Shown one piece after another: positions 15,373-24,251 of a DNA stretch of 31,272 nt (position 1 is the first letter of the stretch; each line of letters opens with the position of its first letter). Below the pieces are notes generated by a model that was not told the DNA's origin, ran no database searches, and was given only the letters and a program-made list of their open reading frames with translations. Source of the stretch: a virus; the IMG/VR virus record IMGVR_UViG_3300017738_000020, positions 1 through 31,272 of that record; one strand, written 5' to 3'. Position numbers and translations under genes: made by a program.

Positions 15373-15626
15373 GTTCGCCAGACGGTTGGGAAGGAATAAG
15401 TCAAGCGTTTGTCGAGCCGCCAAAGGCGGATGACCTGGATATTCTTTATGGCCGGGTCTTTAAATCTGAGGAAGGTCAAAAGGTGTTACATCACCTGAGA
15501 CAGATAACCATTGAGCAACCATCCTGGTATCCAGGAGAAGATCCAAGTCATGGGTTTGTGCGCACAGGCATGACCGAGTTGGTTCGTCTTATCGAGCGCC
15601 GGGTGGGAAGGAGTAATAATGTCTGA
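15369..15626 (+). CDS. Bbp19-like small phage protein
   Basis: 85 residues, four-base overlap with the portal stop. The pattern LDILYGRVFKSEEGQKVLHHLRQITIEQPS, then HGFVRTGMTELVRLIERRV fits the short Bbp19-type family often encoded between portal and scaffold genes of podoviruses. It is mostly helical. It may be a minor structural or assembly factor; no activity is known to me. It overlaps the scaffold start by eight bases. Confidence 0.65.
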   Translation: MSSPDGWEGISQAFVEPPKADDLDILYGRVFKSEEGQKVLHHLRQITIEQPSWYPGEDPSHGFVRTGMTELVRLIERRVGRSNNV

Positions 15627-16386
15627 ACAAGCTGAAACAATCGAAACGTCTGAAGAAACACCCCTGGTAAGCTTTGCTGCTCCAGAAGAGCAAACCGAAA
15701 CGCAAGAGCAACCCTTTCAAATACGCCCAGAAGAGAACGCAGAAAATGAAACTGAAAGCGATGAACCTTTGGAGCGTCCTGATTTTTACCCAGAAAAGTT
15801 TTGGGATGATGATGGCCCTGATGTTGAAAACTTGGCAAAGAGTTATGCGGAACTTGAAAAAGCCTTTAAAGCGGGTAAACACAAAGCGCCAAAAGATGGC
15901 TATGAAACTTCGGATCTTGTTGATAAAGGTCTCGACCTGGAAGATCCTAGCGTTGCTGCGTTTCAAGATTGGTCTCAAAAATATGGGATTTCGCAACAGG
16001 CTTTTGAAGAGCTTGCGGGGCAAGTCTTGGAGTTTTCGCAGACCGGGCAAGAAGCTGTAGAGTATGATCGCCAACAAGAAATGAATAAACTTGGTGAGCG
16101 TGGAAAAGAAAAGATTGCGTATCTTGAACGTCATATTACTAAAGCGTCTTTAACAAATAATGAGCGAGAGGCTTTGGCCTACAGCCTTAGCAGTGCTGAT
16201 GCGATTAATGCTATGACAAAATTTATCCAGGGATACACCAATGAGGGGATACCAACATCTCCTGTTGTTGCTACTCCTGAGATGAGCGAAGCAGATCTTG
16301 CCCAGGCTATTGCAGATCCTCGTTGGCAAACAGATGACGTATGGCGCACAAAAATTGAAAAACAATGGATTGCGGCGAACAGCTAG
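15619..16386 (+). CDS. Capsid scaffold protein (T7 gp9-like)
   Basis: 255 residues, very acidic and Gln/Glu-rich in the first 60, then RPDFYPEKFWDDDGPDVENLAKSYAELEKAF. The PE.FW......D.E.LAKSY.ELE motif is typical of podovirus capsid assembly (scaffolding) proteins. Long helices follow, and the C-terminal DPRWQTDDVWRTKIEKQW resembles the capsid-binding end. It guides procapsid assembly and exits before DNA packaging. Placed between portal and major capsid exactly as in T7. Confidence 0.85.
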   Translation: MSEQAETIETSEETPLVSFAAPEEQTETQEQPFQIRPEENAENETESDEPLERPDFYPEKFWDDDGPDVENLAKSYAELEKAFKAGKHKAPKDGYETSDLVDKGLDLEDPSVAAFQDWSQKYGISQQAFEELAGQVLEFSQTGQEAVEYDRQQEMNKLGERGKEKIAYLERHITKASLTNNEREALAYSLSSADAINAMTKFIQGYTNEGIPTSPVVATPEMSEADLAQAIADPRWQTDDVWRTKIEKQWIAANS

Positions 16387-16392
16387 ATATTG

Positions 16393-16538
16393 TTGCAATA
16401 AAAGTTACTTGCGTGTATATGTGCTTTAAGGGCTAACCGCTGCGCGGCCCCTTGATGTGGTAAACCACTGGTGGCGCGGCCATTACCGTGCAAGTAACCG
16501 CCCGAACACATCGGCTAACGGTAAGCGTTTTATTGTAA
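16393..16538 (+). ncRNA. Structured RNA leader before the capsid gene
   Basis: The 173-base gap between scaffold and capsid genes can fold extensively. P1 pairs 16393-16403 with 16528-16538 (11 bp with one G-U). P2 is directly stacked: 16404-16412 (GTTACTTGC) with 16490-16498 (GCAAGTAAC), 9 perfect pairs. Inside P2: AAGGG/CCCTT enclosing CCGC-TGC-GCGG, and GTGG-TAAA-CCAC, with alternative pairings CCAC/GTGG and GGTAA/TTACC. After P2, CCGA-ACACA-TCGG forms a third arm. GCGCGGCC and GGCTAAC each occur twice. A strong AGGAGG follows at 16546. It is probably a cis-acting leader or processing/stability element for capsid mRNA; I do not match it to a named RNA family. Confidence 0.55.
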
Positions 16539-16559
16539 ACTCAATAGGAGGCTTCTGCT

Positions 16560-17393
16560 ATGGCGCAGAACATCACCGCAGCCTTTGTAACACTCTTCGA
16601 TCAAGAGGTTAAACAGGCATATCAAGGCGAAGCAATTCTTCGCGGAACAATGCGCACCCGTACTGGTGTGCAAGGGAATACTGTAAAGTTTCCAAAAATC
16701 GGCAAAGGTGTTGCAACGGTTCGCGTACCGCAAACTGACGTAACTCCATTAAACGTAACCTATAGCCAGGTTACTGCCACGATGTCAGATTTTATCGCAG
16801 CTGAATACAGCGATATTTTCCATCAATCGCACGTTAATTTCAATGAGCGCACTGAATTAGTGCAAGTTGTTTCAAAGGCGATTGCTCGCCGTATGGATCA
16901 GCTTTGCATTGATGCACTTGATGCTGCCGCTGCCCCATCAACTGTTGCTACATCAGTAGGCGGTGCTGGCACGAACATGAATATTGAAAAGCTTCGTGCG
17001 GCTGCTAAGGCATTAAACCAAAAGAACGTGCCATCTGAAGGGCGGCATCTGTTGATGCACTCCTCACAGCTTGATGCGTTGCTTGGCGAAACATCTGTTA
17101 CGTCGAGTGATTTCGCAACGGTCAAGGCTCTTGTTCGTGGTGAAGTATCGTCATTCATGGGATTCAATATTCTCACAATGGGTGATCGTGATGAAGGCGG
17201 CGTTCCTAAGCCATCTACTCGCACTTGCTTTGCCTGGCACAAAGATAGCATGGGTTATGCTGAAAGTATGTCTCAGAAATCAGAGGTAAACTATATTCCA
17301 GAGAAAACATCGTTCCTCGTTTCTTCGATGTTCTCAGCTGGATCAGTTGCCATTGACGATGATGGCATCGTTAAAATTAGCTGTACCGAATAA
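16560..17393 (+). CDS. Major capsid protein
   Basis: 277 residues, shorter than T7 gp10A (345). AATAGGAGGCTTCTGCT precedes the ATG. The N-terminal arm ITAAFVTLFDQEVKQAYQGE leads to LRGTMRTRTGVQGNTVKFPK. The core contains AEYSDIFHQSHVNFNERTELVQVVSKAIARRMDQL and a C-terminal SFLVSSMFSAGSVAIDDDGI, the usual capsid beta-strand ending with VA..DD.G. These match HK97-fold capsid proteins of marine podoviruses. It should be the most abundant virion protein; the strong ribosome site and the structured leader agree. It follows the scaffold gene, as in T7. Confidence 0.9.
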   Translation: MAQNITAAFVTLFDQEVKQAYQGEAILRGTMRTRTGVQGNTVKFPKIGKGVATVRVPQTDVTPLNVTYSQVTATMSDFIAAEYSDIFHQSHVNFNERTELVQVVSKAIARRMDQLCIDALDAAAAPSTVATSVGGAGTNMNIEKLRAAAKALNQKNVPSEGRHLLMHSSQLDALLGETSVTSSDFATVKALVRGEVSSFMGFNILTMGDRDEGGVPKPSTRTCFAWHKDSMGYAESMSQKSEVNYIPEKTSFLVSSMFSAGSVAIDDDGIVKISCTE

Positions 17394-17405
17394 GGAGATT
17401 AGATA

Positions 17406-17645
17406 ATGGCATTCGCATCAGCAAACTGGGCAACCGTTGGCGCTTCTAAGAGCGGCAATGCTCCTGCAATTTATAGCTATAAGTCTTCTGGAGACACTAA
17501 AGCGACGATCGCAGGATCTGGTTATTTCAACGCAGTTGAAGCTCTTATCACTACTGGTGATTGGATCTACACATACGGAAGCAATGGCGGTCAAACGCTT
17601 GTAGCAACCAATACGTCAGGCGTTATCACAACGGCTGTAATCTAA
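17406..17645 (+). CDS. Small capsid-associated / decoration-like protein
   Basis: 79 residues, AAGGAGATTAGATA before the ATG, 12 bases after the capsid stop. A beta-rich, Gly/Ser/Thr-rich chain: FASANWATVGASKSGNAPAI, YSYKSSGDTKATIAGSGYFN and TTGDWIYTYGSNGGQTLVAT. Short proteins with YKS.DT.A.I...GYF......L..GD.I matching this order lie beside capsid genes in many phages. It is likely a head decoration or fibre component. The conserved pairing with the capsid gene and the terminator right after it suggest high-level co-expression. Confidence 0.6.
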   Translation: MAFASANWATVGASKSGNAPAIYSYKSSGDTKATIAGSGYFNAVEALITTGDWIYTYGSNGGQTLVATNTSGVITTAVI

Positions 17646-17651
17646 AGAAAG

Positions 17652-17675
17652 AGGGGGCTGCTTAGGTGGCCCCTT
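17652..17675 (+). terminator. Hairpin terminator after the capsid genes
   Basis: AGGGGGC (17652-17658) pairs with GCCCCTT (17669-17675), seven pairs including one G-U, around a 10-nt loop. It is followed by ACATTT rather than a T-run, so partial termination is expected. Location after the capsid genes is that of Tphi in T7, which lowers expression of downstream tail genes. Confidence 0.5.
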
Positions 17676-21629: not shown

Positions 21630-24251
21630 ATGGCTAGGATCCCAAGATATCAAAGATTAGGTGTTAGAACTAGGCAACCTCAAAACATAGACTTTGCTGG
21701 CTTTAGGGAAGAAGCTAATGCGGCTCAAAGTCTTTCCAGGTCTTTTGACCAAATGTCAGGTTTTTTATCAAAGACAGCTGCCAAAGAGGCCGAGCGGAGC
21801 GGGATCGAGCGCGTGCGAACTGAAGGTGCGCAGCCAATTCTTGAAGCTATAAGAGATCAAGGTGGCCCAAGAGGCATAGAGGAAACGGCTGCTTATGAAG
21901 CGGCCAATCAAATTGCTATTGCAGAAGTTCAAAGCGAGGCACAGCTAGAGATTACTAAAATCCTAGATAATGCTCAAATAAACAAAACGTCTTTTTCGGC
22001 GGTTCAAAGCCAGCTAAAAGATGTTAGCGATGGTTTCCCGGCGGCGTTATCGGATATTGATCCAGTGTCTGCTGGTGTATTGCGAGCCCGGTTAGAAGAA
22101 ACTGCTGGCAAAGCAGAGATGCGTTACTCAAAGTTTTACGCAGATGAGCAATTAAAAAATCGTAAGATTAAACAAAATTTAGTAAGCGCAAATTCAGCTG
22201 AGTCTATTATAGGAAACGCCATTATTCCGGATTACACGATTAATGAGATAAATAAGGACATTGACGAAGCGGTAGAAACCTTGCGGGGTTTGGGAACAAA
22301 GCCAGAGCTTATAGAAACCTGGGTTAAGAATACCAGAAACAAAGCTATAAAACAAAAAATTATTTTTAATTTTCATCAAGCGCCTCTTCACGAACAAGCT
22401 GGATATATTGATAGCCTTCTTGAAGGTAAAGAAACTTTGCCTGGTATGGACTTTGAGTCGACTATTAGAATGGTAAATGGTTCATTGCGGCCAGAGTACA
22501 ATAGAAACCTGGCTGTTGTAGAAGCGCAATCTGATTTAGTTGTTGATAAATCTGAAGACCAAATAGATATTCTGGAAAACGGTGGCAGCTTATCTGAAGA
22601 GGTTTTAGCAAGCATGTCATCTAGTGCTTCAGAGGTTGCTCGCTTTGATGGCGGTGCAGCAAAAAAAGCAGTTAATAATTTAGTACAGACAGATCAGTTT
22701 TATTCTACACTGCGCAATTTACCATTAAGCGGTGTAGAACAGCGGGTGCTTGAATTACAGTCTGGCATTGAAGGTGTTGGGAGCAAAGGCAGGGATACGG
22801 CGGCAGAGCAGTTAAATTACGAAAGAGCAACAAAATTCCTCGATAATATGAAAAAGGGTATAGAAGAGGATCCTATGGGATATGCCGAGCGCGTGGGGTT
22901 GATTACACGCAGTCCTATACTGACCATAGATGAAAACAAACGTGTGGAAATAGATGAACAAGCTTTAGAAACAAGAGTTCTCGATGCTAAAAGAGTAGCT
23001 AGTGAATACGGACTGCCAGTGCCTAGCTTGCTATTTGCCAATGAAGCGCGAGAAGTTGCTTTGATGCTAGACGTTGTTGATGGAAACGCAAAGCTTGATA
23101 TCCTGGGGGCGCTCTCAAGTTTTGATGCAGCGGCTGGCCAGGTGCTTACACAAGTTGCTGAGTACAGCCCAGAACTAGCAATGATTGGCGCTTTGGTTAA
23201 TCAGGGATCAACCGAGGCAGCGCGTATAGCTGTAGCTGGTTTAGATAGATTAAAAACTGGTGAAAAGATTGTTGAGTTTACACCAACCAATACTGAGCCT
23301 GTTGTTCAAAGTTTATTTAAAAGAGCCATAACATCATCACCTAAAATGTCGCAAGCCATTCAAGGTGTTGCTAAGGCAATCTATGCGGAAACTTCTGTCG
23401 CTAGTGGCAAACCTGGTTTTCAAGAAGATCTTTATACAGAGGCGCTGCAAATGGCAGCTGGGCAAACAACCAAAAAAGGCGTGGTGCGCGGTGGTATCCA
23501 GGAAATTAGAGGTGTTCAGACGTTTATTGATCCAGCACTTACTGCCGATCAAACTGAAAAAATGCTTAATGAATTAACCCCGGCTCTTGTTGCGAGCGTT
23601 ACCGGGCAAACTATGACTGATGCCTTAGTTGAGCAAATAAAAGAAAATGATGAATATCATCTGCGCAATGTGGGAGGTGATAAGTATGCAATTTTCTATG
23701 GTACGACAGGTGAGGTTTCTATTGCCGATAAAGAAGGAACTCCAATTGTTCTAAGCATGAAAGCGTTTAGAGATGCTGTTGCTGTAGGTTTGCCAAAGCC
23801 TAAAATCTATATGGGTGCGCGAAACTCGACTACCGGCCCAGGAATATATGGAATGTATAGAAGCTCGCGGATTGATAGAGACGCCCCATTTGACCCGGCG
23901 TCGTATGGAATACCATCAGATAGCCCCTTTACTCCTGAGGCCGATCTCCCACCAGTTGAGCTAGGCAAAGATCAACAATTCTTAACTGACCGAATGCAGA
24001 CTTCCGGCGGCGTTGCGCTTGAGAAATTCAGCAGAATGGAATTAAGAGAAAACATGCAGCAAATCGCTAAAGAAGCCGGTGCGAGCAGAAAGAGCAAAAG
24101 AGATAATGCATTAATTACTAAGTATATTAATCAAATCTTAGTGCCTGATGTGAATGATGCTGAACTTGCTGTAATCGGAGACTACATTCAATATTTAAAC
24201 AATCCTTCAAATAAGATAATTAAATATGCGGATTGGAAGAAAACCCAATGA
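21630..24251 (+). CDS. Internal virion protein (T7 gp15 position)
   Basis: 873 residues beginning MARIPRYQRLGVRTRQPQNIDF, a start seen in many podovirus internal proteins, then a long helical region rich in Ala, Glu and Gln (ANAAQSLSRSFDQMSGFLSK...). No enzymatic motif is visible. Size and helical content fit the ejection-core component (T7 gp15, 747 residues) that forms the periplasmic tube with the gp16 equivalent. Encoded between the small core protein and the large cargo-carrying protein, with an ATGA overlap to the latter. Assigned from position and composition. Confidence 0.7.
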   Translation: MARIPRYQRLGVRTRQPQNIDFAGFREEANAAQSLSRSFDQMSGFLSKTAAKEAERSGIERVRTEGAQPILEAIRDQGGPRGIEETAAYEAANQIAIAEVQSEAQLEITKILDNAQINKTSFSAVQSQLKDVSDGFPAALSDIDPVSAGVLRARLEETAGKAEMRYSKFYADEQLKNRKIKQNLVSANSAESIIGNAIIPDYTINEINKDIDEAVETLRGLGTKPELIETWVKNTRNKAIKQKIIFNFHQAPLHEQAGYIDSLLEGKETLPGMDFESTIRMVNGSLRPEYNRNLAVVEAQSDLVVDKSEDQIDILENGGSLSEEVLASMSSSASEVARFDGGAAKKAVNNLVQTDQFYSTLRNLPLSGVEQRVLELQSGIEGVGSKGRDTAAEQLNYERATKFLDNMKKGIEEDPMGYAERVGLITRSPILTIDENKRVEIDEQALETRVLDAKRVASEYGLPVPSLLFANEAREVALMLDVVDGNAKLDILGALSSFDAAAGQVLTQVAEYSPELAMIGALVNQGSTEAARIAVAGLDRLKTGEKIVEFTPTNTEPVVQSLFKRAITSSPKMSQAIQGVAKAIYAETSVASGKPGFQEDLYTEALQMAAGQTTKKGVVRGGIQEIRGVQTFIDPALTADQTEKMLNELTPALVASVTGQTMTDALVEQIKENDEYHLRNVGGDKYAIFYGTTGEVSIADKEGTPIVLSMKAFRDAVAVGLPKPKIYMGARNSTTGPGIYGMYRSSRIDRDAPFDPASYGIPSDSPFTPEADLPPVELGKDQQFLTDRMQTSGGVALEKFSRMELRENMQQIAKEAGASRKSKRDNALITKYINQILVPDVNDAELAVIGDYIQYLNNPSNKIIKYADWKKTQ

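Follow-up and report, generated by a model that had tools for sequence, protein, structure and literature searches.

A conserved four-hairpin RNA in the capsid gene leader of small tailed aquatic phages

The 31,272-base virus record analyzed here over its whole length (hereafter, the window) carries a T7-type scaffold gene, the end of which adjoins the 5' side of a leader (16386-16559) that extends to the major capsid protein gene (Table 1). Downstream of the capsid gene lie a 79-aa ORF without a Pfam match and a GC-rich hairpin, which is possibly a leaky terminator or a 3' stabilizer. A counterpart of this hairpin is found at the equivalent place in nearly all of the relatives listed; in several of them, its loop is UUCG or of the GNRA type. 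Because the capsid gene is followed by a small ORF and, in nearly all of these relatives, a closing hairpin, we infer a capsid unit with the order promoter, RNA, capsid gene, small ORF, and hairpin.

Table 1 Features at the capsid locus of the window
Feature	Position	Strand	Basis or detail
Scaffold (capsid assembly protein) gene, T7-type	15619-16386	+	Pfam PF05396 Phage_T7_Capsid, E = 5.7e-17
Predicted sigma70-type promoter	16393-16421	+	-35 TTGCAA 16393-16398, 17-nt spacer, -10 TATATG 16416-16421
Conserved structured RNA, ~100 nt, four hairpins	16428-16527	+	R1 93 bits; R2 37.7 bits, E = 5e-9 (rough); covariation
Hairpin P1	16428-16453	+	Pairs 16428-16432/16449-16453 and 16437-16439/16445-16447
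Hairpin P2	16457-16468	+	GTGG 16457-16460/CCAC 16465-16468
Putative pseudoknot	16469-16482	+	TGG 16469-16471/CCA 16480-16482 in the P3 loop
Hairpin P3, then conserved AAG(C)	16474-16491	+	
Hairpin P4	16494-16526	+	Pairs 16494-16495/16525-16526, 16498-16500/16519-16521, and 16502-16503/16513-16514
Ribosome binding site AGGAGG	16547-16552	+	Read in the sequence; kept among relatives
Major capsid protein gene	16560-17393	+	phrog_3437 major head protein, E = 2.5e-54
79-aa ORF, inside the capsid transcription unit	17406-17645	+	Position matches MEP301 gp30
GC-rich hairpin with a weak U tract, closing the capsid unit	17653-17674	+	

Two groups of relatives were compared: clade A, comprising 80 IMG/VR loci that are close capsid relatives of the window, and clade B, comprising capsid loci akin to that of MEP301, a phage cultured on methylotrophs of the Methylophilales (OM43). 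Capsid identity to the window is 62% for MEP301 and 28% for HTVC010P. The gap between the scaffold and capsid genes measures 166–185 nt in the clade-A loci that hold it completely, and it aligns well.

Within 16428-16527, RNAalifold predicts 24 base pairs, 14 of them with compensatory changes. In the trimmed clade-A alignment (A2), 92.7% of cells are paired and double changes occur in 14 of 25 pairs, with a covariation of 0.313 compared to 0.146 in shuffles, which retain shared ancestry, and at most 0.087 in slid controls. The clade-B alignment (A4; 63 distinct rows) has 96% of cells paired, double changes in 19 of 24 pairs, and a covariation of 0.407, compared to 0.159 for shuffles that again retain shared ancestry and at most 0.075 for slid controls. 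Because A4 was aligned to fit the model, these counts tend to favor the structure; cross-detection between the clades is independent of this fitting. The model built from clade A (R1) matches 78 of the 80 clade-A loci, with L060 and L069 starting inside the capsid gene, and gives weak matches in clade B (best E = 4.6e-9, a rough value). The model built from clade B only (R2) matches all 72 clade-B loci tested, and its rough E-values are 1.5e-27 for MEP301 and 5e-9 for the window. In the MEP301 record (MW452941), the base of P1 lies on the minus strand near 23744. Each model thus detects the RNA of the other clade, and clade B carries a diverged form. Taken from sequence comparison, these results give good support to a real, conserved structured RNA of four hairpins in the leader. 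An earlier note, made from the window sequence, had proposed a structured leader ahead of the major capsid gene, and an RNA is present there, but the two stems it proposed were wrong (see below).

Compensatory changes are distributed over the hairpins, with double changes in 3 of 5 pairs of P1 (helix 1 of A2, clade A), in all four pairs of P2 in clade A and clade B alike, and in 5 of 6 (clade A) and 4 of 5 (clade B) pairs of P3. The putative pseudoknot appears in clade A only, where 94.4% of cells are paired and one pair is compensated, in two sequences. P1 contains an internal loop of CTAA (16433-16436) opposite C (16448), and P4 has C (16501) opposite CTAA (16515-16518). Both are copies of a shared asymmetric loop, 5'-GG[NNNA]Y-3' opposite 5'-R[C]CC-3', in which the lone unpaired base is usually C; in the window, the copies occupy 16431-16437 with 16447-16450 and 16500-16503 with 16513-16519. 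The long side lies on the 5' strand in P1 and on the 3' strand in P4, so the two copies are inverted relative to each other. In clade A, CTAA and ATAA predominate as the four loop bases of either copy; in clade B, CATA, CTCA, and CTAA do. The last loop A is invariant in both copies and both clades, as are the GG and CC, and the P1 and P4 loop sequences vary partly independently of each other. The duplicated GGCTAAC described earlier (at 16431 and 16513) is explained by these two loop copies and is kept in relatives in the looser form GG-NNNA-Y. A second duplication, of GCGCGGCC (at 16442 and 16474), exists in the window but is unduplicated in many relatives.

The RNA core is no more stable than shuffled sequences (mean MFE z of -0.35 and -0.10). 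Since the core is not unusually stable and the unpaired loop residues are invariant, a partner would recognize the shape of the RNA, which would not act as a stable roadblock; selection seems to favor shape rather than stability. By eye, a short hairpin rich in A and T was also noted in part of the loci, located between P4 and the Shine-Dalgarno sequence (16524-16545 in the window), with GTTT..AAAC in clade A and GATAA..TTATC or ATTAA..TTAAT in the clade-B counterparts.

A promoter-like element makes up the 5' third of the leader, and its spacing to P1 is fixed in relatives. TTGNNN and TATNNN-like hexamers separated by 17 nt occur in most clade-A loci at a constant distance from P1. When all offsets were scanned, the best -10 position was 9 nt before the GG of P1 in clade A (summed score of 7.3; mean 4.2, sd 0.7) and 8 nt before it in clade B (6.4; mean 4.1, sd 0.7), i.e., 3 to 4.5 standard deviations over other offsets. 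Single promoter matches are mostly not significant alone and the case rests on the alignment, in which the fixed distance of the hexamers from P1 points to a sigma70-type promoter with a predicted +1 near 16428. Sequence comparison shows that the capsid gene has a promoter-like site of its own. Many clade-B leaders contain an intrinsic terminator between the scaffold gene and the promoter. No RNA polymerase gene is reported for MEP301 (PMC8024684), consistent with the use of host sigma70 promoters.

The fold proposed in the earlier note, in which an 11-bp outer stem stacks on one of 9 bp and encloses the leader, is hardly credible in light of these data. The complementarity exists in the window: the perfect 9-bp match (16404-16412 with 16490-16498) is present, and 16393-16403 is complementary to 16528-16538, although at 91% and not perfectly. 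However, the stems are not kept in 21 related leaders, which were searched for compensatory changes: 60.2% of positions are paired compared to 58.8% in shuffles, and covariation is 0.108 compared to 0.098. By the criterion that the note itself had set, a lack of compensatory changes, these stems are refuted. The 5' arms would moreover fall within the promoter, ahead of the predicted start of transcription. Nothing pointed to 5' processing near 16390, a possibility raised in the note. Nor is the complementarity of the leader beyond chance, as had been claimed, given that its MFE z is -1.36 and 17 of 200 shuffles of this one sequence are equally stable.

The RNA is tightly linked to the capsid gene. 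It precedes this gene in 78 of 78 clade-A loci with upstream DNA and in 72 of 72 clade-B loci tested. A DNA pattern search for P3-P4, blind to protein, recovered at least 80 loci. The 80 pattern loci listed all score with R2, and wherever the downstream DNA is long enough (78 loci), the capsid gene comes next, a median of 38 nt away. Among 15 matching records, including the window, each genome has a single copy, with the exception of a 10.6-bit match at chance level. At a contig end in locus L408 (25-100, minus strand), a second, truncated copy in inverted orientation contains the scaffold end, terminator, promoter, and RNA, and is probably an assembly product. In a pattern scan of bacterial genomes, the best R1 score among the matches listed was 21 bits, covering the 3' half only. 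HTVC010P and Vibrio relatives have short gaps ahead of the capsid gene and gave no match to the RNA, and R2 has no match in the Dunaliella virus SI2 clade. The capsid loci of this third clade, which resemble that of Dunaliella viridis virus SI2 (L527-L577), have a terminator and promoter together with another conserved leader, CAAGATGCAGACCC...CGGCACCC...AAGGCCCTCG, roughly 100 nt ahead of the capsid gene, for which RNAalifold predicts a different, nested fold (4 of 13 pairs compensated). Two more distant capsid leaders (L584 and L585) contain several hairpins of the form GG-CTTAA-CCGC..GCGG-CC that resemble the P1 loop motif and differ in copy number.

Comparisons with known RNAs agree with the earlier statement that no nameable family fits. 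Rfam 15 gave no gathering-level match in the window, the best weak match in a permissive scan of the leader (E = 6.5) was on the other strand, and no match covered the RNA in 16 relatives. SorX and toxic-sRNA Rfam matches in relatives were rejected, as they stop before the RNA, around the terminator; a tRNA-like identity was also rejected, ARAGORN returning no hit. A search of mainly open-access literature found nothing relevant on such a capsid leader. We conclude that the capsid-leader RNA of these small tailed aquatic phages is undescribed so far.

Preservation of the folded shape by matched mutations suggests that capsid-protein production is controlled through this RNA, and its predicted position at the first nucleotides of the capsid transcript also points to control of capsid output. 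The phage probably uses the RNA to control the making of its most abundant protein, and the role in capsid production suggested earlier for the leader is plausible. In our preferred reading, to which we assign a probability of about 0.45, the RNA is a 5' module, read by a protein, of an mRNA that would contain the capsid gene, the small ORF, and the closing hairpin, and it sets capsid output. The paired inverted loops would be read by one putative partner, most likely a phage or host RNA-binding protein that touches both loop copies, and binding would set the amount of capsid protein through mRNA lifetime and translation, for example, as feedback when free capsid or scaffold protein builds up. 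As P1 starts at the predicted first nucleotides of the mRNA, it would in addition protect this end against decay. Predicted folds do not show the Shine-Dalgarno sequence as either regularly buried or regularly exposed (mean unpaired values of 0.30 and 0.36), and no conserved switch involving it was detected; there is thus no visible sign of direct translational repression. Capsid genes with their own promoter ahead and a terminator-like hairpin behind are known from T7 (phi10, gene 10, T-phi), which resembles the unit described here; however, the T7 promoter serves the phage's own polymerase, whereas the promoter in the window is of host type and is followed by a conserved folded RNA of 100 nt. 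The MS2 coat hairpin, a translational operator, is likewise a phage mRNA hairpin with conserved unpaired residues tied to the production of a structural protein, but it is a single hairpin over the start codon, whereas the capsid-leader RNA carries two inverted internal loops among four hairpins at the 5' end, and binding to it is hypothetical.

Three other readings were weighed. It is unlikely, but the best of these, that the RNA acts like put RNA of phage HK022, folding as it leaves RNA polymerase and binding the elongating host enzyme, which would then continue past pauses, Rho sites, and the leaky hairpin to reach the tail genes. HK022 put RNA is a structured phage RNA that works in cis without a dedicated protein factor, and putL sits just past the sigma70 promoter PL (PMC9378689). 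The capsid-leader RNA likewise lies directly behind a host-type promoter, a conserved hairpin terminates the capsid unit, a specific shape is conserved, and MEP301 is reported without its own RNA polymerase (PMC8024684). However, R2 has no match in HK022 at E ≤ 10, size and fold differ (about 70 nt and two stem-loops at early promoters vs. about 100 nt and four hairpins), and intrinsic terminators downstream are not in excess (16 found vs. 18.4 expected).

A riboswitch, in which the two identical loops would be putative small-molecule pockets and a host metabolite reporting infection or nutrient state would tune capsid expression, appears improbable. The invariant unpaired residues in two equivalent loops, the possible pseudoknot, and the compact multi-hairpin architecture in a 5' UTR would fit, but neither an anti-Shine-Dalgarno nor a terminator switch was found as an expression platform, no terminator follows the RNA, and the RNA is found only ahead of one phage gene and not of metabolic genes. 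A switch between P1 and the Shine-Dalgarno sequence was rejected, because P1 covaries (its 3' arm is CCCTT, CCGTT, CCTTC, or CCAAC) while AGGAGG stays constant. There is equally little to recommend a plain 5' stabilizer or spacer, which would slow decay of the capsid mRNA by its structure and have no specific partner. Capsid mRNA must be abundant, P1 starts at the predicted first nucleotides, and a GC-rich hairpin ends the unit, but the core is not unusually stable and the invariant bulged residues exceed what a stabilizer needs. A broader proposal, which we put forward tentatively, is that the RNA represents a new phage RNA class that has a pair of equivalent recognition pockets and is universal in two small-podovirus lineages. 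By acting on host RNA polymerase or sensing a factor, it would let the capsid gene be expressed at a level of its own in the absence of a phage polymerase.

The RNA adds a well-supported structured RNA family that is missing from Rfam 15. Standing ahead of the capsid gene at all loci of the two clades where this could be assessed, it is a directly testable element, and MEP301 on OM43 is a cultured phage in which it can be tested. Metagenomes supply most of what is known about the small aquatic podoviruses akin to HTVC010P and MEP301, and the RNA and its own promoter bear on the way in which these phages make one protein in excess of the others.
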